From: Eubacteriales bacterium
GTDB taxonomy: Bacteria; Bacillota; Clostridia; Oscillospirales; Butyricicoccaceae
Direction of reading: 5' to 3'
DNA length: 57,791 bases
NCBI GenBank assembly: GCA_030524205.1
Contig: JAUNGZ010000016.1
Coordinates: 1-57,791 of the forward strand
Shown: in pieces, positions 3,573 through 57,473 of the stretch
Layout: each line of letters begins with the position of its first letter
How positions within the stretch are numbered: the stretch's first letter is position 1
Position numbers and translations under genes: made by a program
The notes under the pieces: generated by a model
What the model saw: only the letters and a program-made list of their open reading frames with translations
Told to the model about the DNA's origin: nothing
The model's database searches: none

Positions 3573-3670
3573 TGGCGCACCGCTGCGCGATGCGCCAAAA
3601 AGTCAGGACACAAGATGAATTGTCCGAGGGACAAGTGAGGGCGGTCTGCGCCGTGCGCCTGACGTTTTTA
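3573..3670. other. Structured intergenic segment between converging pyr operons
   Basis: The gap 3468-3784 has no credible ORF. It holds TGGCGCA/TGCGCCA at 3573-3597. A possible branched fold at 3602-3663 has outer GTCAGG/CCTGAC, an inner TTGTCC-GAG-GGACAA hairpin, and then GTTTTT. The latter could terminate plus-strand transcription from pyrK-pyrD or be the end of a small RNA. The rest of the gap holds the stem-loop module described separately. Confidence 0.45.
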
Positions 3671-3679
3671 CCAATAGAA

Positions 3680-3783
3680 CAAGGCCGCCGGAATCTAATT
3701 TCCGGCGGCCTTGCTCTGCAATAGCCTTTCCAGCCGGAGGCTGGCAAAGGCGTCCCTCGTTTGAAGCTGTGCGCTTCAAACGA
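3680..3783 (-). repeat. Triple stem-loop module, copy A (after carB)
   Basis: Read on the minus strand from 2 nt past the carB stop, there are three hairpins in series. Hairpin 1 (3757-3783) is an 11-bp perfect stem with arm TCGTTTGAAGC. Hairpin 2 (3724-3751) is a stem of 6+6 bp with one bulge. Hairpin 3 (3680-3713) is a 14-bp perfect stem with arm CAAGGCCGCCGGAA. The linkers are GGGAC between 1 and 2 and TATTGC between 2 and 3. The same order and linkers recur at 22947-23111 and 29520-29697. Hairpin 3 may also terminate carB transcripts. Confidence 0.8.
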
Positions 3784-3784
3784 A

Positions 3785-6700
3785 TCATATGGTGTTGATA
3801 TCCACCATGTCGCAATTTTCGATTTTGATATCGCCCTCGAGGCAGCGCAGCAGCGCGGAGGCCGTGTCGATCGAGGTCAGGCACGGGATAGCGCGCTCGA
3901 CCGCCGTACGGCGGATGTGCACCGAGCCAAGCTCGGGGTGGCGGCCCTTGACCGAGGTCGCGATCACGTAGTCGATCTTGCCCGACTCGATCAGGTCGAT
4001 GATGTTCGGGCTGTCCTCGTCCACATTGCGCACCGCGTTGGTGGCGACCATGTGGCGGTTTAGGACGTTCGCCGTGCCGCTGGTGGCGTACACGTCGAAG
4101 CCGAGGGCCTCGAACCGCTCGCCGATGCGGATAGCCTCCTGCTTGTCCGAATCGCGCACGGAAATGAGCACCGCGCCCTTCTTCTTCATCTGGAAGCCCG
4201 CGCCGAGCAGACCCTTCAAAAGCGCCTCGCGGAACGAGGTGGACACGCCCAAAACCTCGCCGGTGGACTTCATTTCCGGCCCGAGCTGGGTGTCCAGATC
4301 GCGCAGCTTCTGCCACGAGAACACCGGCACCTTGACCGCGTAATGGTCGCTTTCCGGATGCAGGCCGACGCCGCAGCCCATATCGCGCAGCTTTTCACCG
4401 AACATGCAGCGGGTGGCCAGATCGACCATCGGCACGCCGGTCACCTTGGAAATATACGGCACGGTGCGGGACGAACGGGGGTTGACCTCGATGACATACA
4501 CCTCGTCGTTATACAGCACGAACTGGATGTTGACCAGACCGAGCACGGAAAGCGACTTTGCCAGCGCCTCGGTGTAACGAATGAGCGTTTGCTTGTGCTT
4601 GTCCTCAATGGTGATGGCGGGGTAAACCGAAATCGAGTCGCCCGAGTGCACGCCCGCGCGCTCCATGTGCTCCATGATGCCGGGGATCAGGATATCGTCG
4701 CCGTCGCAGATCGCGTCGACCTCGATTTCGCGGCCCATCATATATTTGTCGACCAGCACAGGGTTTTCCACCTTGTTGCGGGTGATGACCTGCATGAACT
4801 CGCGCACGTCCTCTTCCTTGTAGGCGATTTCCATGCCCTGGCCGCCGAGTACGTAGGACGGGCGCACGAGGACGGGATAGCCCAGCTCGTCCGCGGCGCG
4901 CACGGCCTCCTCCTCGGTCATGACGGTGTGGCCCGCCGGGCGGCGGATGCCGCACTTTTCGAGGATCACGTCGAACTTCTCGCGGTCCTCGGCCGCGTCG
5001 ATGCTCCACGCGGGCGTGCCAAGGATCGGCACGCCGAGCGACTCGATGTGCGCGGCGAGGTTGATGGCGGTCTGCCCGCCGAACTGCACGATGGCGTAAT
5101 CGGGCTTTTCGGCGTTCACCACGCCGGTCACGTCCTCGGGCGTGAGCGGCTCAAAGTACAGCCGGTCGGCGGTGTCGAAGTCGGTCGAGACCGTCTCGGG
5201 GTTGTTGTTGATGATAACGGTCTCGCAGCCGAGGGCTTTGAGCGCCCAGACCGCGTGCACCGAGCAGTAGTCGAATTCGATGCCCTGTCCGATGCGGATC
5301 GGGCCGGAGCCCAGAACCAGCACCTTCTTCTTGCCGGTGGAGGGCTTTGTTTCGGTCTCCTCGTCGTAGGTCGAATAGTAATACGGGGTCTCGGCCTCGA
5401 ACTCGGCGGCGCAGGTGTCGACCGTTTTGTAAACGGGCAGGCGCTTGACGGCGGAAATGTCCGCACCGGAGAGCTGCTCGATCGTCTTATCGAGGAAGCC
5501 CATCTTCTTCGCGCGCAGGTAGAGCGCGGCGTCGACGGTCCCGGCGGCCGCGAGCGCCTTTTCCATGTCGACGATGTTCTGGAACTTGTGCAGGAAGAAG
5601 GTGTCCATCGTGGTGATCTCGTGGATCTCCTCGATGGTCATGATGCCGCGGCGCAGCGCCTCGCAGATGTGGAACAGGCGGTCCACGTCGGTCGTGGCAA
5701 CGCCCTTGCGGATCTCCGCGTCGCTCTTGGCGGCGAAGCGCGGCGCGGCCAAGCTCTCCATTTTGATTTCGCAGCCGCGCACAGCCTTCATCAGCGCGCC
5801 CTCGAACGAATTGTCGATGGCCATGACCTCGCCGGTGGCCTTCATCTGCGTGCCGAGCGAGGAATCCGCGTACACGAACTTATCGAACGGCCAGCGCGGG
5901 AACTTGATCACGCAGTAGTCGATGGTCGGCTCAAAGCAGGCCTTTGTCTTGCCGGTGACGGCGTTTTCGATCTCGTCGAGGCCGTAGCCGACCGCGATCT
6001 TGGCGGTCACCTTGGCGATCGGGTAGCCGGTTGCCTTGGACGCGAGCGCGGAGGAGCGCGACACGCGGGGGTTTACCTCGATCACGGCGTACTCGAAGGA
6101 TTCGGGGTTTAAGGCGTACTGCACGTTGCAGCCGCCCTCGATGCCCAGCTCGGTGATGATGTTTAAAGCCGAGGTGCGCAGCATCTGGTATTCCTTGTCG
6201 CACAGCGTCTGGCTGGGCGCGACGACGACCGAGTCTCCCGTGTGCACGCCGACCGGGTCGACGTTTTCCATGTTGCAGATGGTGATGGCGTTGCCCTTGG
6301 CGTCGCGCATGACCTCGTACTCGATTTCCTTCCAGCCCGCGATGCATTTTTCGACGAGGATTTCGTCGACGCGGGAGTACATGATGCCGGACGCGGCGAT
6401 CTCGCGCAGCTGGTCCCACGTGTAGGCGATGCCGCCGCCCGTGCCGCCGAGCGTGTACGCCGGGCGGATGATGACGGGCAGGCCGATCTCGCGGGTGAAC
6501 TCGACCGCGTCCTCGACCGTGTGCACGACCTTGGAGGCGATGCACGGCTCGCCGATCTTTTCCATCGTGTCCTTAAAGAGCTGGCGATCCTCCGCCTTGG
6601 CGATGGTGTCCGGCTTGGCGCCGAGGAGCTTTACGCCCATTTTATCCAAAAAGCCGTTTTCGCACAGCTCCATGGCGAGGTTCAGGCCGGTCTGGCCGCC

Positions 6701-10092: not shown

Positions 10093-10146
10093 GCTTTTCG
10101 GGGGCGCCGCCGGGAACGGCGGGAACCGCTGCCGCACGCGCGGCAG

Positions 10147-10321
10147 GCGCGCAAGAGGGGAGAAACCGTAGGTTTCTCCCCTCTTGTGAATTTCCTCTTT
10201 TCCCTTATTTATAGCGGGAAGCCCGGGCCGATTCCATCGTCCCTCCCGCACGGCACACCGCTCCGAAAAAGGACGGCGGAGGCCGAAGCGGAGGGGCCTG
10301 CCGCGCAGAAGCCCGCGCCGC
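10147..10321 (+). repeat. Dispersed ~175-bp intergenic repeat, copy 1
   Basis: It is closely similar to 57300-57473 in the same orientation. It opens with a 16-bp perfect hairpin (arm CAAGAGGGGAGAAACC at 10152-10167, loop GTA). It continues through shared blocks such as CTCCCGCACGGCACACCGCT and CGCGCAGAAGCCCGCGCCGC. No ORF is shared between the copies. It fills the gap between the small membrane protein and yhhQ. A further CTGCCGC/GCGGCAG hairpin lies just before it near 10128-10145. Confidence 0.85.
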
Positions 10322-10335
10322 CCACAGGCGGTAAT

Positions 10336-22450: not shown

Positions 22451-22939
22451 ATGAACCGACGGGACAAGGTAAACTATTATCTCGATATGGCGCAGGTCGC
22501 GCTCGAGCGCGGCACCTGCCTGCGGCGCAACTTCGGCGCGGTCATCGTCAAAAACGACGTGATCGTGTCGACCGGCTACACCGGCGCGCCGCGCGGCCGT
22601 GAAAACTGCATCGACATCGGCACCTGCATCCGCCAGAAAATGGGCATCCCGCGCGGCGAGCGGTACGAGTTCTGCCGCTCGGTGCACGCGGAGGCCAACG
22701 CCATCATCGCCGCCCCGCGCGAGCAGATGCTGGGCGCGACGCTCTATCTGGTCGGGCGCGACATGTCGACCGGCGAAATCATGCCGGACGCCAACTCCTG
22801 CACGATGTGCAAGCGCATGATCATCAACGCGGGCATCGAAAAGGTGATCATCCGGCGCGACAGCGATACATATGACACGGTAAACGTGCGCGACTGGATC
22901 TATCACGACGATATTCTGGGCGGCCAGCGAGGCTACTGA
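22451..22939 (+). CDS. Deoxycytidylate (dCMP) deaminase, ComEB family
   Basis: The 162-aa zinc enzyme deaminates dCMP to dUMP for dTTP supply. The active-site HAE lies in RSVHAEANAI, and the second zinc motif is SCTMCKRMI, with both cysteines. An N-terminal basic start MNRRDKVNYY is chosen because GGGAGGG lies 5-6 nt upstream of ATG 22451. In-frame ATG 22421 has no such site and overlaps the ABC gene end. A stem-loop module follows directly after the stop. Confidence 0.92.
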   Translation: MNRRDKVNYYLDMAQVALERGTCLRRNFGAVIVKNDVIVSTGYTGAPRGRENCIDIGTCIRQKMGIPRGERYEFCRSVHAEANAIIAAPREQMLGATLYLVGRDMSTGEIMPDANSCTMCKRMIINAGIEKVIIRRDSDTYDTVNVRDWIYHDDILGGQRGY

Positions 22940-22946
22940 AAAACTT

Positions 22947-23111
22947 CGTTTGAAGCGTACAGCTTTAAACGGGGGACGGTGTTTCAGCCTGCGGCTGAAA
23001 CACCTATTGCGCCGGACAGACGGCAAAATTTCGATTTTGCCGACCGTCCGCCTGTGAAAAAAATGAACGGGCGAAGCTCGTCCATTTTTTGCAAGCGGCA
23101 GAGCCGTTTGC
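22947..23111 (+). repeat. Stem-loop module, copy B (after dCMP deaminase), five hairpins
   Basis: Starting 8 nt after the stop there are five consecutive hairpins. Hairpin 1 (22947-22971) has arm CGTTTGAAGC, shared with copy A. Hairpin 2 (22978-23004) is 12 bp with arm GGTGTTTCAGCC. Hairpin 3 has a core CGGCAAAAT-TTCG-ATTTTGCCG at 23021-23042 with outer CGGAC/GTCCG. Hairpin 4 (23058-23090) is 15 bp with one mismatch and ends in T6. Hairpin 5 (23091-23111) is 9 bp. The linker CTATTGCGCC between 2 and 3 is identical in copy C. The remaining gap up to 23182 has no further element I recognise. Confidence 0.85.
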
Positions 23112-23182
23112 TGATAAAATACGCGCACGGCGCGTAAACGCACAAAAACGAGCAACACTAGGAGTCAAAGGAGGATTTGCAA

Positions 23183-23563
23183 ATGGAACTGAAGGTATTC
23201 AAATGCATGCACTGCGGCAACATCATTGAGATGGTGGAGGATCACGGCGTGCCGGTCTACTGCTGCGGCGAGCCGATGAAGGAATTTAAGGCCGGCGAAA
23301 CGGACGGCGCGCAGGAAAAGCACGTGCCGGTCGTCGAGGTGGACGGCGACACCGTGCGCGCGAACGTCGGCGAGGTCACCCATCCGATGAGCGAGGAGCA
23401 CCATATCTCGTTCATCTGGCTGGTAACGGATAAGGGGATCTACCGCCGCGCGCTGCCGCATACCGGCGCGCCCGAGGCAAGCTTCCGCGTCGCGGCGGAC
23501 GAAACGCCCGAGGCGGTATATGAATTCTGCAACCTGCACGGGCTGTGGCGCACGAAAATTTAA
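23183..23563 (+). CDS. Desulfoferrodoxin-type superoxide reductase
   Basis: The 126-aa protein reduces superoxide to peroxide, typical of strict anaerobes. The N-terminal rubredoxin-like centre is FKCMHCGNI with YCCGEP. The catalytic iron ligands are all present: His in EKHVPVVE, two His in HPMSEEHHISFIWL, and Cys/His in FCNLHGLW. AAAGGAGGATTTGCAA gives ATG 23183 good spacing. It is a class I (two-iron) enzyme by architecture. Electron donors such as rubredoxin are not nearby. Confidence 0.95.
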   Translation: MELKVFKCMHCGNIIEMVEDHGVPVYCCGEPMKEFKAGETDGAQEKHVPVVEVDGDTVRANVGEVTHPMSEEHHISFIWLVTDKGIYRRALPHTGAPEASFRVAADETPEAVYEFCNLHGLWRTKI

Positions 23564-23613
23564 TTTCGCCTGCACCGTACGGCTGACAGCAAGAGCCGGC
23601 GGTTCAGCAAATA

Positions 23614-23648
23614 AAAAACGCAGCGGGACTTTGTCCCGCTGCGTTTTT
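23614..23648. terminator. Bidirectional terminator between superoxide reductase and citrate synthase
   Basis: AAAAACGCAGCGGGAC/GTCCCGCTGCGTTTTT is a perfect 16-bp stem with a 3-nt loop and A/T-rich flanks on both sides. It separates two converging genes. Confidence 0.9.
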
Positions 23649-23673
23649 GCAGGTGCGGAGAAAAACCCGGCGG

Positions 23674-25041
23674 TCAGCCGCGCTCATCCAGATTCTTGTA
23701 CACGGTCGACTTGGCCAGCGGCTTATAGGCCGGGCGGATGATCTTGCCGCCGCTCGTGACCTCCTCGAGACGGTGCGCCATCCAGCCGACAATGCGCGCG
23801 GTGGCGAACAGCGGCGTGTAAATCGACTTGGGCAGGCCGAGCATCTTATACACAAAGCCGGAGTACAGGTCGACGTTGGCGCACATGGGCTTATCCAGCC
23901 CTTTTTTCTCCGCAAAAATCTGCGGCGTCAGCTTTTCAACCAGCTCGATGAGCGCCATTTCCTCGGAAAAGCCCGTTTTTTCGGCCAGCGGACGCGCCGC
24001 TTTCTTCAGCGCGACCGCGCGCGGGTCGGATAACGTGTAAATCGCATGGCCCATGCCGTAGATCAGGCCCGAGCCGTCGCCCGCCGCGCCGTCCATAATT
24101 TTGCGCAGATAATCCGCGACCTCGCCCTCGTCCGTCCAATTCCTGACGTTTTCCTTGATTTCGTCGAACTGCCGAACGACGCGCAGGTTGGCGCCGCCGT
24201 GTCGCGGCCCCTTGAGCGAGGACACGGCCGCCGCGATGGACGAATACGTATCCGTGCCCGAGGACGAGGTAACGCGCACGGTGAACGACGAGTTGTTGCC
24301 GCCGCCGTGCTCGGCGTGCAGGATCAGGCAGCGGTCGAGCAGCAGCGCCTCGTCCGCGGTGTATTCGCCGTTCGGGCGGATCAGGTGCAGAATGTTTTCC
24401 GCCGTCGACCGGTCGGGGTCGGGCACGTGCAGGAACATCGAATCGCCGTCAAAATAGCGGCGCTTGGCCTGATAGGCGTGCGAGATGATGACCGGGAATT
24501 TGGCCATCAGGCTGATGCCCTGCCGCATGATGTTCTCGACCGTGGTTTCGTCCGGGTTTTCATCGTAGGAATAGAGCGCGAGCGTCGCGCCGGCGAGCTT
24601 GTTCATGATGTCGCGGCTGGGCGCGCGCATGATCATATCCTCGGTAAAGTTATCGGGCAGCGCGCGCTCCAGACCGATCGTGTGCTGGAAATCGGTCAGC
24701 TGCCGGCGGTTTGGCAGCGAGCCGCACATCAGCAGATAGCCGACCTCTTCAAAGCCGAAGCGGTTTTCCTGCTCCAGCCCGTGAATCAGATCGTACACGT
24801 TGTAGCCGCGGTAGGTCAGGCGGCCTTCAATCGGCTCGCGCTCGCCTTCGTTCATGATATAGCCGTGCACGTTGCCCAGACGGCTCGCGCCGACCAGCAC
24901 GCCCGTGCCGTCCGCATTGCGCAGGCCGCGCTTGATGCTGTATCGGGAGAACAGCTCGGCCGGAATCTGATCGTGCATACGGAAGCTCTCGCTCAATTCC
25001 TGCAAAAGCTCTTCTCTTACAAAATTCGGCTGCGTCGTCAT
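23674..25041 (-). CDS. gltA: Citrate synthase
   Basis: At 455 aa it condenses acetyl-CoA and oxaloacetate to citrate, here probably for glutamate synthesis in an incomplete anaerobic TCA route. Catalytic residues are visible: His in LILHAEHGGGNNSSF, His in YGMGHAIYT, and Asp in CANVDLYSGF. The length and N-terminal extension match the larger bacterial citrate synthases of gut clostridia. No aconitase or isocitrate dehydrogenase lies next to it. It has its own promoter. Confidence 0.95.
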   Translation of the reverse strand: MTTQPNFVREELLQELSESFRMHDQIPAELFSRYSIKRGLRNADGTGVLVGASRLGNVHGYIMNEGEREPIEGRLTYRGYNVYDLIHGLEQENRFGFEEVGYLLMCGSLPNRRQLTDFQHTIGLERALPDNFTEDMIMRAPSRDIMNKLAGATLALYSYDENPDETTVENIMRQGISLMAKFPVIISHAYQAKRRYFDGDSMFLHVPDPDRSTAENILHLIRPNGEYTADEALLLDRCLILHAEHGGGNNSSFTVRVTSSSGTDTYSSIAAAVSSLKGPRHGGANLRVVRQFDEIKENVRNWTDEGEVADYLRKIMDGAAGDGSGLIYGMGHAIYTLSDPRAVALKKAARPLAEKTGFSEEMALIELVEKLTPQIFAEKKGLDKPMCANVDLYSGFVYKMLGLPKSIYTPLFATARIVGWMAHRLEEVTSGGKIIRPAYKPLAKSTVYKNLDERG

Positions 25042-25083
25042 CGGGCTTTCTCCTTTCCGGTTCGGGATGCGAACAATGAATAT

Positions 25084-25112
25084 ATTTTACATCAAACTTG
25101 CAAAAATGTCAA
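25084..25112 (-). promoter_or_regulatory. Promoter of citrate synthase
   Basis: TTGACA (25107-25112) and TAAAAT (25084-25089) are 17 bp apart on the minus strand. The leader is about 35 nt with GAAAGGAGAAAG before the start. The upstream AT-rich stretch 25113-25260 has no other recognisable feature. Confidence 0.85.
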
Positions 25113-25260
25113 TTCTCGCCGCTTGTGTAAACGTACAAAAAGCGTGTTGCCGCATTTTTCCCTATTGTTCACAATGTTTGTACGCAAGTTTATTTTTAAA
25201 TTTTGCAAACAGTTTCTCACAGCAAAGCGAAAAAGCCCGTGCCGCGGCGCGTACAAAATA

Positions 25261-25289
25261 GAACAAAGGCGGCAGCGCCGCCTTTGTTC
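25261..25289. terminator. Terminator of the L,D-transpeptidase gene
   Basis: GAACAAAGGCGGC/GCCGCCTTTGTTC is a perfect 13-bp stem with a 3-nt loop, 45 nt past the gene's end. Confidence 0.75.
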
Positions 25290-25334
25290 TCATTAAATTG
25301 CCCAATGGCCGCCCGTGGTTCCGACCGAACGGTT

Positions 25335-28028
25335 TTAGAAAATGACGACCGTCGTTCCCACCGGAACGGTATCATAGATCCACTGGATATCGCTCTTATA
25401 CATGCGCACGCAGCCGTGCGAGACCGGATAACCGGCGCTGAAATCATATTCTTTGTCCGTTCCGGGGTAGCAGAGGCGCGAATGGAACGCATATCCGGTG
25501 CCCGGGTAAAAGCCGACGACAGGGCGCACGGTGTAGGTGGAGGTCGTCCAGCCGCCCGCGCTCTTGTAGGACACCGTGGTGATGCCGGTCGGCGTGGGCG
25601 TCGACGCCGCGCCCGTGCCGACGAGGAAGGACTTATGCAGCTTCCAGTTCCCCTTGGAGCCGGTAAACACGTTTACGTGCTGATACGCGCGGTTGATCCA
25701 AAGCAGGTATTTCGAGTTGCTCGAATAGCCCTTGGCGTTGACGAAAACTTCCTTTTCGTAGCTCGCGTAGTCGTTATTGACCGCGTACGCCGTCGTATAG
25801 TTGCCGCGGTATGTAGAGGAGACCAGACCCAGCACCCGGTCCACGTCGCGCTGATAGTACCACTCGTCCGAATGGTTTTCGATCGGCACGGTCTTTTCCG
25901 CGTAAACCTCCTCGGTTTCGCCGGTCGAGGGGTTGGCGTAGCTCAGCTTAAAGCCGATGGTCACGCTCTTCTGCATGTTCTTGGTGAATTCAAAATACGA
26001 GGTGTGGCGCGAAACCTTATCGGCGGTCAGCTCAAAATTCTCGTTGGCGAAGCCCTCGATCGGCTTGCCGTCCTGATACCACTGCGCCTTGCACACCTTG
26101 GGCTCCTGCACGCCCGCAAACTTGACCTGCGTCAGCAGCGAGCCGCCCGGCGTGACCTTGGTGGGCACGCCGATCTCGATGGAAACGCCGGCAAGGCCCT
26201 GATCAATGTTTTCGAGCTTGGAATCGGCGGTCAGCGTCACCTCGCAGCCGACCGCGCGGATATCGACCTCGCCGGCCTTGCCCCTGCCGTCGACCTTGGA
26301 GCCGAGGCCCGCGACGGTCAGCGTATCGACCGCCTTATTCAGCGTCAGATGGTTGTTCTTCGCGCCGCCCGCGATCTGCACGCCGGCCGCCGGGCCGTCG
26401 ACAACGATGGTGTTGCCGCTGCCCGTGACGGAAAGCCGCTCGGCCTCCATACCGGTCAGGGTGATCGTGCGGTTTGAGGCGGTGATCTCGATATTATTCG
26501 CCGCGCCGCGGTAGGAAACGGCGCCGCCCGTGCCGGCGATCAGCAGCGTGCCGGCCGACGAGCCGCCGGTCAGCTCGATCTTGGCCTCGCCCGCCGGGTC
26601 GGCGGCAATCAGCCCAAGCTCGGTCTTACCCTGCGCGGTCAGCTCAACCGCCTCCGCGCCCTTGAGCACGACGCGGCCCGCCGCCGTCACCGCGTCGAGC
26701 GCGATTTTCTCGACGGCAGCCGGGAAATACAGGTCGCCCGCCGCCGTCAGATCCTCGAGCTTGTTTTCCGGAGCGGACAGCAGCGCGCCGCCCTGAACCG
26801 TCTCCGGATATCCTTCCGCTTCGATAAAATCCGGTACGATGCGCAGCAGCATCGTCACGAACTGCGCGCGCGTCAGCGCGGCGTTCGGCGCGAGGGTTGT
26901 CGCGGTGTCGCCCTTGACCACGCCCGCCGAAACCAGCGCGGCGGCGGCGTTTTTCTGCGCCGCGGTCATGGAGGACGTGTCCGTAAAGGCCGCAAGCGCG
27001 TCGCTGTCTCCGGGCACGCCGTCATAGACGAACGCGCGCGCGAGCAGCACAAAGGCCTCGGCGCGGGTGCAGGCCGCGTCGAAATTGCGGCTGTCCGCCG
27101 CGTCGATCAGGCCCAGATGGATGGCTTTGCCCAGATCGTTCGCGTACCACGCGTTCTGGGGCACGTTTTTCAGGCCGGAAACGTCGTCCGCCTCGGAAGC
27201 GCCCAGCGTGCGGTTGAGGATGACGGCGGCCTCGGAGCGCTTGACCGGGTCGTCGGGCAGGATTTTACCGCCCGCGCCCTTCAAAAGCCCCAGCTCGACC
27301 GCGCGCGCCAGCGACGCCTCGGCCCAGTGGCCCGCCATGTCCGGGAAGGCGGGCTCGGCGGGCTGGCCGGTCTGGTCCTCGCCGGTGTCGGTCACAAGGG
27401 TGAGAGTGACCGGAAGCGCGCCTGCCATAATGCGCGCGACGTACAGCTTGGCCGCATCGAGATCGAAACCGCCGGTTACGATCAGCGCGCCCGCGTCATA
27501 TGCGGCGGCTTCGCCGACGGCCGCGCCGTCAAGCGCAGCCGACAGCGCCGCATCCCCGTCCCGCTCGGCAAGCGCCTTCTGCGCGCCGTCCGTCAGGCCG
27601 AGCTGTATGTAAGCCGCACCGTCATCCAGCCCGGCTTCGGCGAGCGTCACATCCGCGTTTTTCAGCGAGATTTTGCCGTCCGCAGTTGCGATGGACAGCA
27701 CATTCGGCAGCATCAGAAAGGTCGCGAGCCCATCCGCCGCATCCGCGCCTTCCGGCAGGGTGACGGCGACCGTTTTCCGGTCGTCCGGAAAGGCGACGAC
27801 GGCACTTTCAAAGCCAAGCAGCTCGAGCCGTTTCTCCAGCACGGCCTTCACGTCCGCCTGCGTTTTGTCCCACATTTGGTCGGTATCCATTTCCTCCGGC
27901 AGCGTGGCCGCGAAGGTCAGCACCGTTTCCTCCGCGCCCTCCGCCGGCGCGGTATCGCCGTCCGCCGCGAAGGCCGCGGAAAACAGCATCAGAGCGGCCA
28001 GCAGGCCGCTGAGCAATCGTTTCTTCAA
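25335..28028 (-). CDS. Secreted protein: SecD-head-like domain, three SLH domains, L,D-transpeptidase (YkuD)
   Basis: The 897-aa protein has a signal peptide (KKRLLSGLLAALMLFSAAFA). About residues 30-200 resemble the periplasmic P1/head domain of SecD: VLEKRLELLGFE, VTLPEGADAADG, and GALPVTLTLV at the end. Residues about 205-395 hold three SLH repeats (FPDMAGHWAEASLARAVELG is the clearest), which bind secondary wall polymer. A glycine-rich beta-repeat region and an Ig-like segment follow. The C-terminal YkuD domain ends with the catalytic SHGCVRM. TTG 28028 is preferred because GGGGG lies 10 nt upstream; ATG 28049 has no ribosome binding site. It probably makes or edits 3-3 peptidoglycan cross-links at the wall. 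Confidence 0.85.
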   Translation of the reverse strand: MKKRLLSGLLAALMLFSAAFAADGDTAPAEGAEETVLTFAATLPEEMDTDQMWDKTQADVKAVLEKRLELLGFESAVVAFPDDRKTVAVTLPEGADAADGLATFLMLPNVLSIATADGKISLKNADVTLAEAGLDDGAAYIQLGLTDGAQKALAERDGDAALSAALDGAAVGEAAAYDAGALIVTGGFDLDAAKLYVARIMAGALPVTLTLVTDTGEDQTGQPAEPAFPDMAGHWAEASLARAVELGLLKGAGGKILPDDPVKRSEAAVILNRTLGASEADDVSGLKNVPQNAWYANDLGKAIHLGLIDAADSRNFDAACTRAEAFVLLARAFVYDGVPGDSDALAAFTDTSSMTAAQKNAAAALVSAGVVKGDTATTLAPNAALTRAQFVTMLLRIVPDFIEAEGYPETVQGGALLSAPENKLEDLTAAGDLYFPAAVEKIALDAVTAAGRVVLKGAEAVELTAQGKTELGLIAADPAGEAKIELTGGSSAGTLLIAGTGGAVSYRGAANNIEITASNRTITLTGMEAERLSVTGSGNTIVVDGPAAGVQIAGGAKNNHLTLNKAVDTLTVAGLGSKVDGRGKAGEVDIRAVGCEVTLTADSKLENIDQGLAGVSIEIGVPTKVTPGGSLLTQVKFAGVQEPKVCKAQWYQDGKPIEGFANENFELTADKVSRHTSYFEFTKNMQKSVTIGFKLSYANPSTGETEEVYAEKTVPIENHSDEWYYQRDVDRVLGLVSSTYRGNYTTAYAVNNDYASYEKEVFVNAKGYSSNSKYLLWINRAYQHVNVFTGSKGNWKLHKSFLVGTGAASTPTPTGITTVSYKSAGGWTTSTYTVRPVVGFYPGTGYAFHSRLCYPGTDKEYDFSAGYPVSHGCVRMYKSDIQWIYDTVPVGTTVVIF

Positions 28029-28063
28029 GTTCTGGTTTCCCCCCTGCATTCATATGTATTTCT

Positions 28064-28092
28064 ATTGTACGGTGGGCGGCATGGCTTGTCAA
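28064..28092 (-). promoter_or_regulatory. Promoter of the SLH/L,D-transpeptidase gene
   Basis: Near-consensus TTGACA (28087-28092) and TACAAT (28064-28069) with a 17-bp spacer on the minus strand. Confidence 0.88.
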
Positions 28093-28152
28093 GCCAAAGC
28101 GCACTGCTTTTGGAACGATTCCCCGCCCTTTCCCGTCAAAATGAAGCAAAGG

Positions 28153-28181
28153 TTTACAACCCCGCAACCTCGTGATATACT
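28153..28181 (+). promoter_or_regulatory. Promoter of the zinc-ribbon/LprI-like gene
   Basis: TTTACA and TATACT with a 17-bp spacer; GAGGAGG follows 30 nt later. It is divergent from the L,D-transpeptidase promoter. Confidence 0.82.
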
Positions 28182-28225
28182 AACAAAGGATTTTGATTAC
28201 CGATTATTCAGAGGAGGAACCATCC

Positions 28226-29518
28226 ATGCTTTGCAAGAATTGCGGCAAGGAGCTGCCCATCGCGGGCAAATTCTGCCCCTTCTGCGGCGCACCGATCGAG
28301 CAGGCCGGCGCAAACGACGAAACCGCCGTTTTCACCGCCCTGCCAGACGAGCTGAACGGCCCGCTCGACCTTTCGGCCTTCGACGCCGTCATGAAGGACG
28401 TGCACGGCGCGCAGGACGGCGGCGCGGCCGACCCGCTTGCCGCGACCGATCCGCATATGCCGCGGGCGGACGAACTGCCGCCGATCAACGTGCCGCCCGT
28501 GCGGCGCGCACAGGGCGCGCCGGGCGCGCCCCGCACCACCTATTTTGAGCAGCCCGACCTCGACGACAAGCCGTTTAAAAAGCCGTCCAAGGGCAAAAAG
28601 GGCGCGGTGATCGCGCTGGTCGTCGTGCTCGTGCTGGCGCTGATCGGCGGCGGCGTGTGGTTCGTCCTCTCCCGCCAGCCGGACGAAAACCTGACGCTGG
28701 CCGAAAAGTACATGAAGCACGGCGATTTCGACAAGGCGCTCGAATACTACCTTGCCGCGCAGGGCGAGGCCAAGGACCCCGCCTCGCTCGACCAGACCAT
28801 CCAGCTGCTCAAGGATTTCCAGACCGCGCAGGGCTTTATGGACAACGGGCAGTACACCGAGGCGCTCGCGGCCCTGCAGCTTTTGCAGAACCGTGTGACC
28901 GACCCGGATTCCCCGCTGTACGACGCGATCAAGGAGCTGACGGACAAGGCCTCCGCCGCCCAGTCGGACAGCCAGTTCGCCGCCGATCTGCAGAAGGCGT
29001 CGGATTACCTTGCCAACAAGCAGTACGACCAGTGCGCCGCCCAGCTCGACATGCTCGCCGCGGACGACACGCTGACCGGCGAGCAGGTCAAGCAGGTCGA
29101 AAAGCTGCGCGACAGCCTCAAGGAAGCGCGGGAGGCCGCCGAACGGCAGGAGCAGAACCAGCAGCAGCAGCAGGAGAAGAAGCAGGGCTTTGTTGACCAG
29201 ATGAACCAGCTCGACGAAAACGACCAGAAGATCGCCGCCGCCGCGACGGCCGAGGAGGAGCTTGACCTGACCTCGACCTCGTTCGAGGCGTGGGACACGC
29301 TGCTCAGCGATATGTACGACCATCTGGCCACCGTGCTCAACGCCGACCAGTACGCCTCCGAGGAGGAGAGCTACAAGAAGTGGGTCGAGGAGCGCGACGC
29401 GGGCGCGCAGAACGCCGCCAAGGACGCCGCGGACGAAACCGCCGGCAAGCTGGCCGCGGCGAGCTTCAAGCAGAGCTACACCAAGACACGGTGCTATAAG
29501 CTACTCGACATGATGTAA
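28226..29518 (+). CDS. Zinc-ribbon membrane protein with TPR-like and LprI-like (DUF1311) regions
   Basis: This 430-aa protein starts with a zinc ribbon (CKNCGKELPIAGKFCPFCG). A Pro/Ala/Asp-rich linker leads to one membrane segment (AVIALVVVLVLALIGGGVWF, about residues 130-150). The outer part has TPR-like helices (AEKYMKHGDFDKALEYYLAA) and a Gln/Glu-rich coiled stretch. The end (AWDTLLSDMYDHLATVLN, then TKTRCYKLLDMM) resembles lysozyme-inhibitor LprI domains, though the usual Cys pattern is reduced. Start 28226 follows GAGGAGGAACC. Topology implies a cytoplasmic zinc ribbon and an external helical domain. Function is unknown. Confidence 0.75.
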   Translation: MLCKNCGKELPIAGKFCPFCGAPIEQAGANDETAVFTALPDELNGPLDLSAFDAVMKDVHGAQDGGAADPLAATDPHMPRADELPPINVPPVRRAQGAPGAPRTTYFEQPDLDDKPFKKPSKGKKGAVIALVVVLVLALIGGGVWFVLSRQPDENLTLAEKYMKHGDFDKALEYYLAAQGEAKDPASLDQTIQLLKDFQTAQGFMDNGQYTEALAALQLLQNRVTDPDSPLYDAIKELTDKASAAQSDSQFAADLQKASDYLANKQYDQCAAQLDMLAADDTLTGEQVKQVEKLRDSLKEAREAAERQEQNQQQQQEKKQGFVDQMNQLDENDQKIAAAATAEEELDLTSTSFEAWDTLLSDMYDHLATVLNADQYASEEESYKKWVEERDAGAQNAAKDAADETAGKLAAASFKQSYTKTRCYKLLDMM

Positions 29519-29519
29519 G

Positions 29520-29697
29520 TCGATTGAAAGCCCGCTTTCTGCGAAAGCGGGCTTTCAATCGAGGAACGCACGCTGGGAGCGTGCTATTGCGCCAGCGGCC
29601 CCTCGGAATTTCGATTCCGAGGGGCCGCTGCCTTTGTATAAAATCCAAGGCGCATGTCCTTGGATTTTATGAAAACGGCTGTTTCACACCCGTTTTC
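29520..29697 (+). repeat. Stem-loop module, copy C (after the zinc-ribbon gene), five hairpins
   Basis: Beginning 2 nt after the stop there are five hairpins. Hairpin 1 (29520-29562) is a perfect 20-bp stem with a TGC loop. Hairpin 2 (29568-29584) is GCACGC/GCGTGC. Hairpin 3 (29594-29629) is a perfect 16-bp stem with a TTCG tetraloop. Hairpin 4 (29638-29670) is 13 bp with arm ATAAAATCCAAGG. Hairpin 5 (29671-29697) is GAAAACGG/CCGTTTTC. Linkers are GGAAC between 1 and 2 and CTATTGCGCC between 2 and 3. Order and linkers match copies A and B. Confidence 0.88.
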
Positions 29698-29748
29698 TAT
29701 CAGATGCGCGCGGCGGCACGGGAGACGAGGGACGAAGGGCGGGGCTGA

Positions 29749-29778
29749 TTGACCCTTTGGGGCGGGGTATGGTATACT
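29749..29778 (+). promoter_or_regulatory. Promoter of the lipase gene
   Basis: TTGACC and TATACT with an 18-bp spacer, 24 nt before the start codon. Confidence 0.75.
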
Positions 29779-29801
29779 GAAAAAGAACAGGGGGATTGCG
29801 T

Positions 29802-32611: not shown

Positions 32612-34015
32612 TTACTTTTCCTTGCCCTTGGTGATGCGGACGACCAGCCCGGAAAGCGCGATCAGGCCGATCAGGTTGGGCAGCACCATCAGGCCGTTGA
32701 ACATATCGGACATGTTCCAGACCAAATCCACCTTGAGCCACGAGCCCAAAACGATGAACAGCACGACGATCACCGCGTAAATCTTGACCGCCTTCTTGCC
32801 GAACAGCGCCTTGACGTTGGTCTCGCCGAAGAAATACCAGCCGATAATGGTAGAAAACGCGAAGAACAGCATGCAGATCGCGATGAACACGTTGCCGAAC
32901 GAGCCGAACGCCGCATTGAACGCCGCCTGCGCGAGCGGCGCGCCGTCCAGCCCGCTCGACCACAGGCCGGACGAGATGATGACGAGCGCGGTCAGGGTGA
33001 GGATGATGAAGGTGTCGATGAACACGCCCATCATAGCGACGACGCCCTGATCCTGCGGCTTTTCGACCTTCGCCAGCGCGTGCGCGTGCGGGGTCGAGCC
33101 CATGCCGGCCTCGTTGGAGAACAGGCCGCGCGCCACGCCGTAGCGCATGGCCTTCTGCACGGACAGGCCGATCACGCCGCCCGCCACGGCCTGCGGATTG
33201 AACGCCATGACGAAAATTTCCTTAAAGGCAAGGCCGATCGTCGCATGGTTGATGCACAAAATCGTCACGCAGCCGACGATATACAGCGCCGCCATCACCG
33301 GAACGATCTTTTCGGTAAACGCCGCGATGCGCCCCACGCCGCCTAGGAAAATAAAGGCTGCCACGACCGCGCACACCACGCCGACGAGCACCGGCTGAAC
33401 GCCGAACGCGTTTTCAAACGCCGAGCCGATCGAGTTGGACTGCACCATGTTGCCCATGAAGCCAAGCGCCAGAATGATGGCGACCGAGAAGAAGCCCGCC
33501 AAAAACTTGCCGAACTTGCCTGTAAACGCCGCCTTGATGTAATAAATCGGGCCGCCGGTGGTCTGCCCGTCCGCGTCGGTGGTTTTGAACTTCTGCGCCA
33601 AAACCGCCTCGGCGTAGATCGTGCTCATGCCGAAAAACGCCGACACCCACATCCAGAAGATCGCGCCCGGGCCGCCGGAGGCGATGGCCGTGGCCGCGCC
33701 CGCGATGTTGCCCGTGCCGACCTGCGCCGCGATGGCGGTCGTCAGCGCCTGGAAGGACGACATGCCCTCCTTGCCGGCCTTATCGCCCTTCAGGCTGAAT
33801 CCCCCGAACAGCCGCTTCATGCCCTCGCCGAACTTGCGCACCTGAATGAAGCCAAGCCGGACGGTGAAGTACACGCCGGTCGCGATCAGCAGAAACAGCA
33901 GCGCGTAATCCCACAGGATCGTGTTCATAAACGCGACGATTGCCTCGACCACCTTGCCGGGCGCGCCCGTCTGCGCCGCCTGTAAAATACCCTGAAACCC
34001 CTCGATAATTGCCAT
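32612..34015 (-). CDS. AGCS-family symporter, probably glycine/alanine:Na+
   Basis: At 467 aa it has the AGCS signatures AAQVGTGNIAGAATAIASGG and FSNEAGMGSTPHAHA, and the closing MFNGLMVLPNLIG. It is a full-length paralogue of the symporter at 11980-13344. ATG 34015 follows AAAGGGGAATAAAAAG. The upstream tandem glycine riboswitch makes glycine the probable substrate, taken up for use or removed when in excess. It is monocistronic. Confidence 0.93.
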   Translation of the reverse strand: MAIIEGFQGILQAAQTGAPGKVVEAIVAFMNTILWDYALLFLLIATGVYFTVRLGFIQVRKFGEGMKRLFGGFSLKGDKAGKEGMSSFQALTTAIAAQVGTGNIAGAATAIASGGPGAIFWMWVSAFFGMSTIYAEAVLAQKFKTTDADGQTTGGPIYYIKAAFTGKFGKFLAGFFSVAIILALGFMGNMVQSNSIGSAFENAFGVQPVLVGVVCAVVAAFIFLGGVGRIAAFTEKIVPVMAALYIVGCVTILCINHATIGLAFKEIFVMAFNPQAVAGGVIGLSVQKAMRYGVARGLFSNEAGMGSTPHAHALAKVEKPQDQGVVAMMGVFIDTFIILTLTALVIISSGLWSSGLDGAPLAQAAFNAAFGSFGNVFIAICMLFFAFSTIIGWYFFGETNVKALFGKKAVKIYAVIVVLFIVLGSWLKVDLVWNMSDMFNGLMVLPNLIGLIALSGLVVRITKGKEK

Positions 34016-34097: not shown

Positions 34098-34159
34098 CCG
34101 CGAAAACGGCGCGAAAAAGCATCCGAACGCCGCCCCCGGCCTTCGGCTGCCGCCGTTTC

Positions 34160-34340
34160 CGATACTCTGTCCTTTTGCCTGAGAGATTCGCGCGGCTTCG
34201 CGCGTTGCACCTTCGGCATCCCCGCACAAGGGGGGACTTCTCCAGAGCCACATCCGTCCACAGTCCTCATCTCCCGTCTGGGGAAACGCCTGAGAGTTTT
34301 GCTCCTTCGGCAAGCCGTGCGGCTTTTTCCTGCGGATTTC
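34160..34340 (-). ncRNA. Tandem glycine riboswitch
   Basis: Two aptamers on the minus strand precede the AGCS symporter. The upstream one has GCCGAAGGAGCAAAACTCTC, then an inserted hairpin (TTCCCC/GGGAGA region) before GAGGACTG. The downstream one is canonical: GCTCTGGAG, GCCGAAGGTGCAA, then TCTCAGGCAAAAGGACAGAG. Both core motifs are hallmarks of the family. Glycine riboswitches in front of symporters may act as on or off switches; direction is not decided here. Confidence 0.92.
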
Positions 34341-37757: not shown

Positions 37758-38027
37758 TTAAGGACGCGCGCAAACGCCGGTACTTCGATTGCGCGCGCAG
37801 CCGCAATCGAGACGCTTCTCCGGGAACGGCAGAACGACCGTCGCCCGGCGGCGCGGCGTGGGCTTGCGGCGCGCCAAGCGCTTCCCCGCTGCAAAAAGCA
37901 GCCCCGCGTATAAAACGCCGAGCGCCAGCCCGCCGGCCGCCACCGTTCCCGCGTCCGAGGCGCCGGCCGCCAGAAACAACAGCAGGCCTCCCGCCGCCTG
38001 TAAACCTAAGCCAATCCTTTTCCGCAT
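37758..38027 (-). CDS. Small two-span membrane protein, unknown function
   Basis: The 89-aa product begins MRKRIGLGLQAAGG and has two hydrophobic segments (about residues 6-23 and 31-48), then a long basic, Arg/Pro-rich tail. GGAGGGG is 6 nt upstream of ATG 38027. An extended reading from 38084 lacks a ribosome binding site. I do not recognise a family. It lies alone between the PBP operon and the nanE locus. Confidence 0.5.
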   Translation of the reverse strand: MRKRIGLGLQAAGGLLLFLAAGASDAGTVAAGGLALGVLYAGLLFAAGKRLARRKPTPRRRATVVLPFPEKRLDCGCARNRSTGVCARP

Positions 38028-57240: not shown

Positions 57241-57299
57241 GGGGGAGGGGAGATTTCGCCGCCCATGGGGGCGGCGGGGGGTTCGCGCGCTGCGGCGCG

Positions 57300-57473
57300 G
57301 GCGCACAAGAGGGGCGAACCCTACGGTTTCTCCCCTCTTGCGAATCACCCCTTTTCCCTTGTTCCCAATGGAATCCCGGGCCGATGCAATCGGCCCTCCC
57401 GCACGGCACACCGCTCCGAAAAGAATGGCGGGGGCCGAAGCGGAGGGATCTGCCGCGCAGAAGCCCGCGCCGC
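57300..57473 (+). repeat. Dispersed ~175-bp intergenic repeat, copy 2
   Basis: Homologous to 10147-10321 in the same orientation, including CTCCCGCACGGCACACCGCT and CGCGCAGAAGCCCGCGCCGC. The first hairpin is imperfect here (CAAGAGGGGCGAACC against GGTTTCTCCCCTCTTG). Next to it GGGCCGAT/ATCGGCCC forms a second hairpin. It sits upstream of pepF, on the opposite strand to it. Confidence 0.85.

Follow-up and report, generated by a model that had tools for sequence, protein, structure and literature searches.

A genus-specific composite palindromic repeat positioned behind stop codons in a Butyricicoccaceae bacterium

The three copies of a hairpin-rich element found in the window (the whole stretch of 57,791 nucleotides that was analysed) are part of a far larger family, which counts at least 77 matches of 50 bits or more in the window's own genome. 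The family is on balance best explained as a genus-specific composite repeat of the REP/BIME kind, whose hairpins form putative transcribed 3' ends and whose stems are kept mainly at the level of the DNA.

An initial annotation, made from the letters of the window, had described three copies of a hairpin module behind three unrelated stop codons, and inspection of the sequence bears out their order and linkers, with TATTGC in every copy (Table 1). Against dinucleotide shuffles the copies fold with z-scores of -11.2 (copy 1), -8.8 (copy 2) and -10.7 (copy 3). The names given to the genes upstream of copies 2 and 3, dCMP deaminase and carB, are supported by a Pfam search; the name "zinc-ribbon gene" for 28226-29518, upstream of copy 1, is not, as that gene matched nothing in Pfam at E<=1e-5 or in NCBIfam at E<=1e-10. 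The nearness to the stop codons also stands, with the model matches at distances of 0 (copy 1), 5 (copy 2) and 0 (copy 3) nt in place of the 2-8 nt first given. Only the two plus-strand copies had been credited with two hairpins beyond the third, but the carB copy has the fourth hairpin (H4) too, its arms split by a large insert, and a short sixth hairpin usually follows the fifth as well (by eye). A lone hairpin resembling the first (TTCGATTGCG...CGCAATCGAGA) lies at 37784-37812 of the window, inside a called minus-strand ORF, with the rest of the module absent.

Table 1. Parts of the three copies of the element in the window (H1 to H6, hairpins 1 to 6).
Feature	Position	Strand	Basis
Copy 1, model match	29519-29674	+	R1, 104 bits
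Copy 1 (after gene 28226-29518), H1, 20 bp stem, 1 nt past stop	29520..29562	+	sequence, fold
Copy 1, linker 1 GGAAC	29563..29567	+	sequence
Copy 1, H2, short, 7 bp	29568..29584	+	sequence, fold
Copy 1, linker 2 TATTGC	29585..29590	+	pattern match; block conserved in alignments
Copy 1, H3, loop TTCG	29591..29632	+	sequence, fold
Copy 1, H4, GGCGCATGTCC loop type	29638..29670	+	sequence, fold
Copy 1, H5, A-tract/T-tract stem	29671..29697	+	sequence, fold
Copy 1, H6, degenerate, ATGCGCGCGGCGGCAC	29704..29719	+	sequence, by eye
Copy 2, model match	22945-23094	+	R1, 137.5 bits
Copy 2 (after dCMP deaminase, stop 22937-22939), H1, approximate bounds	22945..22972	+	sequence, fold
Copy 2, linker 1 GGGAC	22973..22977	+	sequence
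Copy 2, H2, 12 bp	22978..23004	+	sequence, fold
Copy 2, linker 2 TATTGC	23005..23010	+	pattern match
Copy 2, H3, loop TTCG	23011..23052	+	sequence, fold
Copy 2, H4, GGGCGAAGCTC loop type, approximate bounds	23056..23090	+	sequence, alignment
Copy 2, H5	23091..23111	+	sequence, fold
Copy 2, H6, TACGCGCACGGCGCGTA	23120..23136	+	sequence, by eye
Copy 3, model match	3666-3784	-	R1, 102.9 bits
Copy 3 (after carB, stop 3785-3787), H1	3757..3784	-	sequence, fold
Copy 3, linker 1 GGGAC	3752..3756	-	sequence, linker pattern
Copy 3, H2	3724..3751	-	sequence, fold
Copy 3, linker 2 TATTGC	3718..3723	-	pattern match
Copy 3, H3, loop ATTAGA	3676..3717	-	sequence, fold
Copy 3, H4, arms split by insert, approximate bounds	3595..3669	-	sequence, fold

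Elements of type A follow the order H1, linker 1, H2, (C)TATTGC, H3, TTTGTA, H4, H5 and usually H6, and measure about 150 bp for H1-H4 and roughly 215-230 bp with H5 and H6. H1 has 10-20 bp, frequent loops of CACG/CCACGC or GTACA, and is followed by a linker 1 that ends in AC; H3 reaches up to 20 pairs without interruption, with loops that are chiefly TTCG, TTTG, TGCG or TCTG; the H4 loop is GGGCRAAGCTC or GGCRCATGTCC; the stem of H5 joins an A-tract to a T-tract; and H6, which comes after H5 in most copies (by eye), is short, G+C-rich and GCGCGCTGCGGCGCG-like. Sibling types share H1 and H4-H6 with type A and differ in the middle; examples are type B, whose middle contains GTTCCGACACGCGAAAC, and type C, with CGCGCCCTGCGGGCAC (all by eye). 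An extra unit of H1, linker and H2 occurs in four copies (L008, L027, L028, L074), and an additional insert inside H4 in L084, L085 and the carB copy. In the own genome, linker 1 mostly has the annotated form (G)GGAC/GGAAC; relatives show drift to GAAAC, GCGAC, ATATAC and other forms. Linker 2 is better kept than linker 1, with CTATTGC exact in 35 of 46 own copies and 25 of 38 relatives' copies of at least 86 bits (60/84 in total). On the question of terminal inverted repeats, H1 and H6 are unrelated palindromes (by eye), and among the relatives compared, which are other species, no empty site was close enough to define a target-site duplication.

The size of the family was assessed in the own genome, a draft of 2,212,955 bases in 47 contigs that is 81.9% complete, where a DNA search returned partial matches to the element by the dozen and a scan with the linker pattern found the same order of hairpins in many copies. 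A covariance model (R1) built from 23 copies and spanning H1-H4 (151 positions, 49 pairs) gave at least 124 matches at E<=1 and at least 77 at 50 bits or more when 150 of 1640 candidates were scored, the best E-values reaching 9e-43. The counts of genomic context given below are based on 66 of these 77 matches, which were fetched and examined, the other 11 being left out; they exclude matches below 50 bits in the own genome and below 41 bits in relatives, and omit L014 (50.3 bits) and L122 (98.6 bits) because both copies are cut by a contig end. The relatives' copies examined are 30 loci from a 40-genome search, some of them own or weak, together with 20 picked from the list of that search, out of many more matches. 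The element is dispersed, multi-copy and extragenic, all 66 examined own copies adjoining called genes or contig ends. The window also has, at 10138-10325 and 57297-57473, another dispersed repeat, which is about 185 bp long and contains a strong palindrome (AAGAGGGG...CCCCTCTT); seven further places in the own genome, some of them partial, match it at 81-87% identity. In some copies the sequence past H6 (L021 below 1454 on the minus strand, L073 after 1664, L005 after 1732) leads to GGACGGGGGACG...GCGCCCACGGGGCGC-like units, which are perhaps a further repeat family.

The search of related genomes with a covariance model, which the annotation had proposed as a check, yielded further copies in every genus relative sampled. 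In a draw of 40 genomes, all 24 genus relatives and the own genome match R1 at E<=0.01, and 6 of 15 genomes of other families have a weak match or two (E 2.6e-6 to 0.01). In an order-wide draw of 245 genomes, for which the filters were stricter than in the 40-genome draw and 12 candidates were scored per genome, a match at E<=1e-10 was obtained in 5 of the 6 genus members (the own genome counted among them), as against 0 of 14 genomes of the same family and 0 of 225 others (0/239 in total). The element is described here as genus-specific. Two sequence collections, genome_contigs and viral_contigs, from which records near the window's genome have possibly been left out, gave six and two pattern matches respectively and no R1 match at E<=0.001; all eight were taken as chance because none is a match to the model at that threshold, and virus-borne or distant copies were rejected. 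The proposal that the three window copies are themselves chance hairpins typical of a G+C-rich genome can appeal to the frequency of hairpins in this genome, but its probability is negligible, given an order, linkers and loops common to dozens of copies, E-values down to 9e-43 and the lack of any match at E<=1e-10 in the 239 non-genus genomes of the order; it was rejected on the basis of the shuffle z-scores, the covariation described below, and the counts of copies and genomes.

The position of the element was determined relative to genes called with a simple codon-usage gene caller made for this analysis. In the own genome, 49 of the 66 copies start between -9 and +14 nt from a same-strand stop codon; four more lie 35-47 nt away because an extra hairpin (H1-H2) unit fills the gap, and the remainder comprises one copy 307 nt from the stop, three without a called gene on that side and nine in antisense orientation. 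The relatives' copies behave likewise, with 35 of 44 at -9 to +16 nt and 9 of 44 antisense. The first bases of H1 themselves form the stop codon in five copies (L012, L029, L054, L059, L124; distance -9). A cruder test of stop proximity counted 45 of 66 own copies against 772 of 20000 random positions, and by the same test an opposite-strand gene ends at the 3' end of the model in 6 of 66. Not every element is flush with a gene: in L180 and L181 a type-C-like element follows the gdhA stop at about 78 nt, after a terminator-like hairpin (by eye).

The sense orientation that the annotation had called invariable holds for the three window copies but not for the family, in which 9 of 66 own and 9 of 44 relatives' copies are antisense; disregard of gene ends or of orientation had been named as a finding that would tell against the module, and gene ends are in fact respected, while the bias in orientation is strong without being absolute. 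The distance between H1 and the start of the opposite gene is 17-26 nt in 5 of the 9 own antisense copies and in all 9 of the relatives', which places H1 beside that gene's ribosome-binding site, and 73-126 nt in the other four own copies; the relatives' nine are not independent, as five represent one locus (with L003) and two another, and for L036, classed as antisense, there is also a sense frame of 416 codons, which ends 7 nt before H1. Where both neighbouring genes were called, the pairs were ++ 28, +- 23, -- 8 and -+ 0 in the own genome and ++ 23, +- 12, -- 9 and -+ 0 in relatives, so that no copy (0/59 own, 0/44 relatives') lies between divergent genes; the window itself, for comparison, has 8 convergent and 8 divergent gene pairs. 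The element therefore shares with REPs and BIMEs its location downstream of coding regions, between tandem or convergent genes.

A rival proposal is that H4-H5 are ordinary intrinsic terminators that have acquired extra hairpins. H5 is indeed terminator-like in 22 of 53 sense own copies by a loose test, and the four convergent gene pairs that were fetched have one copy each (L001, L002, L011, L037), but in 7 of the 53 sense copies another terminator-like hairpin stands apart, further downstream, H1-H3 have, by eye, no T-run, and 28 of the 66 own copies occur in sense orientation within tandem gene pairs, where strong termination would be harmful. Given these tandem copies, full termination at every element is improbable, and the proposal as a whole is distinctly unlikely. 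One such copy follows infB (L079; NCBIfam scan) and precedes a gene that we take to be rbfA; another (L029) stands behind what is presumably an accB-like gene and before a presumed fabZ-like gene. At L011 (1407-1755), between convergent genes, two elements point towards each other; their short H2 is the same, they share a palindromic H6, and one of them looks like the product of an inverted duplication.

When 40 proteins encoded upstream of the element were scanned against NCBIfam, 12 had no match and the rest had mixed functions, among them rubrerythrin, glutamate dehydrogenase, an AspS-type ligase, ilvC, RNase J, metK, infB, argS, cobT, fhs and, from a relative, pnp; the frames assigned upstream of L003 and L072 are uncertain, both copies being antisense. 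A pathway-specific regulon was rejected, since no pathway is common to the upstream genes scanned.

Comparison of the same slot across genomes indicates that slot ages differ: some, such as that behind gdhA, are old, the one behind dCMP deaminase is lineage-specific, and the one behind carB is occupied by different types in different species. Behind the dCMP deaminase gene the element is present in 1 of 23 genomes, the own one, and absent in all 22 relatives where the gene was located. Behind gdhA, 11 of 22 genomes (the own one counted) have an R1 match, and a remnant or cut copy is visible by eye in two others (L167, L176). Behind carB, R1 finds it in 5 of 22 genomes, the copy being of type A in the own genome and of type B in four relatives (L188, L189, L195, L196; by eye); three genomes have deletion remnants (L187, L192, L201; by eye), and no element was seen in the remaining ones apart from L198, where the contig ends too early for a judgement. 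In L187 and L201 the remnants, right after the carB stop, resemble deletions between short direct repeats (TTTCG; GATGAAA; by eye) and illustrate the decay of a slot.

The content of a slot can also have a history different from that of the adjoining gene. Between L055 and L056 the gdhA coding sequences are 0.95 identical and the elements 0.75 (aligned columns, gaps ignored), which is the level of unrelated own copies (median 0.79, 630 pairs), while between L050 and L055 the gene is 0.93 and the element 0.98 identical; slots can therefore persist while their content is replaced. In the pnp slot, element identity is 0.88-0.99 in all ten pairs, alongside coding identity of 0.89-0.94, and this retention argues for function and against a passive repeat. 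One might go further and suppose a cassette system addressed by stop codons, in which interchangeable rows of hairpins are inserted, exchanged and lost at the base behind the stop codon, with the edge of the ribosome-binding site as its address when reversed; we consider this doubtful, but if it were true, the 3' ends of conserved genes (gdhA, pnp and carB among them) would form a set peculiar to each species.

The initial annotation had read the variation in the stems as apparent compensatory change and had proposed that covariation be scored. For this purpose 79 copies, being matches at E<=1e-19 in the 74 sources searched, were aligned, with L022, L077, L079, L080, L122 and L139 outside the set. 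Changes on both sides were found in 46 of the 49 pairs; the paired share of cells is 95.1%, and covariation scores 0.640, compared with 0.182 (sd 0.006) for shuffled and at most 0.147 for slid alignments; the alignment was fitted to the model and thus leans towards structure, but the margin is still very large. The stems therefore do vary and yet stay complementary, as annotated.

Such compensatory change is not, however, proof of selection as RNA. If stems are selected as transcribed RNA, G-U pairs should outlast A-C mismatches, so that the two classes can be compared in sense copies, with all mismatches scored alike. In 88 sense copies the stems contain 136 G-T and 124 A-C mismatches, with a slight G-T lean in relatives (66:53, p 0.27) and none in the own genome (70:71). 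Within the aligned sense copies, H1-H3 have 50 of each, and H4 has 100 G-T and 19 A-C, an excess that is due to conserved G-T columns. Intrinsic terminators of E. coli and the genus, treated by the equal method, gave 51 G-T and 23 A-C (binomial p 0.0015), a moderate contrast to the elements (Fisher p 0.012); other settings gave 62:31 and 108:59 for terminators, and the genus terminators alone 34:19. Chance stems in coding sequence are symmetric as well (G-T 129, A-C 118). The comparison relies on the terminator control, the remaining ones being small or biased: fixed-position wobble in 13 tRNAs was 4:3, some of them probably misindexed, tRNA stems based on ARAGORN are incapable of showing A-C pairs, and rRNA stems gave 20:11 or fewer.

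A second line of evidence comes from the loops. Template switching, as described by Monttinen and Loytynoja (PMC8794818), copies one arm of a hairpin from the other and so produces several compensatory changes at once and, rarely, an inverted loop. Exact inversions of common loops make up 5 of 40 recognised own H3 loops (CGAA once, CGCA twice, CAAA twice; in L025, on both strands of L011, in L087 and in L085), of which the two in L011 are possibly not independent; none was found among 15 recognised H3 loops of relatives or 82 recognised H4 loops. The missing wobble preference and the H3 inversions together indicate that the palindromes are probably kept at the level of the DNA, and arm copying by template switching would appear to act on the element, at least on H3. 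Points that tell against this view are the lack of inverted loops in H4 and in the relatives' H3, the G-T excess of H4, the slight G-T lean in relatives and the equal symmetry of chance stems. Even with such upkeep, the hairpins may matter as RNA.

Of the two readings that the annotation had set side by side, a palindromic DNA repeat family is supported by the dozens of dispersed copies, the gain and loss at species level, the antisense copies and the occasional loop inversions, and a 3'-UTR RNA structure stays in consideration because copies sit at expected 3' UTRs and some, as at pnp, are conserved like coding sequence. In its strict form the latter reading posits a 3'-UTR module selected as RNA, with candidate protein binding at its linkers (GGGAC, TATTGC, TTTGTA), which would control decay or termination and whose copies would be functional RNAs and not repeats. 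The predominance of sense copies, the slot at stop codons, the retention at gdhA and pnp, the covariation and the exactness of linker 2 all fit this possibility, which we nevertheless hold to be a minority one: the stems outside H4, unlike those of terminators, have no wobble preference, some H3 loops are inverted, antisense copies lie beside ribosome-binding sites, the copy behind dCMP deaminase is lineage-specific, the upstream genes have no common pathway and linker 1 drifts in relatives.

The repeat reading raises the question of which known repeats the element resembles. As the annotation had held, no named family with this order was found in Rfam or the open-access literature. Across the whole window no Rfam family matches over the element at gathering score, and a permissive search of 22900-29800, which takes in copies 1 and 2, gave eight matches, all below gathering, one of which, Thr_leader, scores 28.6 of 55 bits over H1 of copy 1; membership of an Rfam family was rejected on these grounds. 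The only window match at gathering score is a glycine riboswitch aptamer at 34157-34255 (minus strand, 58.4 bits), upstream of the minus-strand gene 32612-34015.

The element looks like a new, composite variant of the interspersed palindromic repeats. REPs are found mostly downstream of genes, in the gaps of unidirectional or convergent pairs, and the roles proposed for them concern supercoiling, termination and mRNA stability (PMC3733652); ribosome stalling has been reported for REPs situated within 15 nt of a stop codon (PMC12306157, citing other work). The likeness to REP/BIME thus consists in dispersed palindromes downstream of coding regions, some of them within 15 nt of the stop (PMC12306157, PMC3733652). 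The enterobacterial units are, however, 20-40 bp long and mostly tagged with GTAG or CGTC (PMC12306157, PMC3733652), and tagged REP repeats are reported mainly from gamma- and alphaproteobacteria (PMC3733652), whereas the present element consists of about six longer palindromes in fixed succession, with linkers that have no tag, an H1 flush with the stop and variable stem sequences; it is not a single imperfect palindrome of 20-40 (60) bp but a fixed row of H1-H5, usually with H6. GACG (CGTC on the other strand) follows H1 in 34 of 46 own copies but in only 12 of 38 relatives' copies of at least 86 bits, and CGTC was for this reason rejected as a tag; no GTAG tag was noticed in the element alignments (by eye, uncounted). 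With the REP/RAYT/REPIN system the element shares extragenic palindromes with compensatory changes, which in that system are thought to be mobile (PMC3116915), but mobilisation by a RAYT was rejected, because 4 of 25 genus genomes contain Y1_Tnp (PF01797) and the other 21, which include the own draft (82% complete), lack it.

MITE-like repeats such as ERIC, YPAL and Correia/NEMIS are similar in their length of about 100-200 bp and their strong folding, and are transcribed, as the present element would be; those reviewed are long stem-loops, several of them with terminal inverted repeats (PMC2229807). The present element differs from them in its several separate hairpins in a row and its interchangeable middle modules. 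Pneumococcal BOX is likewise a modular repeat. Template-switched hairpins also have stems with several simultaneous compensatory changes and a rare loop inversion, but template switching is described for rRNA and microRNA genes as a mutational process and is not a repeat family (PMC8794818).

The reading favoured here is that of a hairpin barrier at 3' ends and between cistrons, maintained at the level of the DNA, in which the role of barrier is putative. Some six DNA palindromes, placed in fixed order between a stop codon and the next feature, would work as a transcribed mRNA 3' end or as the gap between two genes. The row of strong hairpins would slow 3'-to-5' decay, and copies with a terminator-like H5 may help to end transcription, in line with earlier proposals for REP hairpins. 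The stems would stay perfect mainly at the DNA level, one arm being copied from the other by template switching at the palindrome, so that selection may act on the linkers and on whether the hairpins are present, and not on individual RNA pairs. ERIC acts on upstream mRNA in an orientation-dependent manner and is reported to destabilise it (PMC2229807), and the direction of the effect on mRNA could for this reason go either way.

The palindromes might alternatively serve as a device of the DNA itself, binding a protein or topoisomerase or absorbing supercoils at the ends of transcribed genes. A role of this kind has been proposed for BIMEs and gyrase. Mismatches without strand bias outside H4, the position at the 3' ends of many housekeeping genes and the occurrence of both orientations would suit such a device, but it leaves the bias in orientation unexplained, and it seems improbable.

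Strong covariation alone, here in 46 of 49 pairs, is insufficient to establish selection as RNA where arm copying can produce covariation. The role and the spread of REPs are still debated, and the genus offers a large, strictly ordered version of such a repeat, which occupies the same address behind one gene after another and of which old, new, exchanged and decaying copies exist together. Two questions are thereby made testable: whether such repeats are kept for RNA or for DNA, and how a repeat finds the stop codon.
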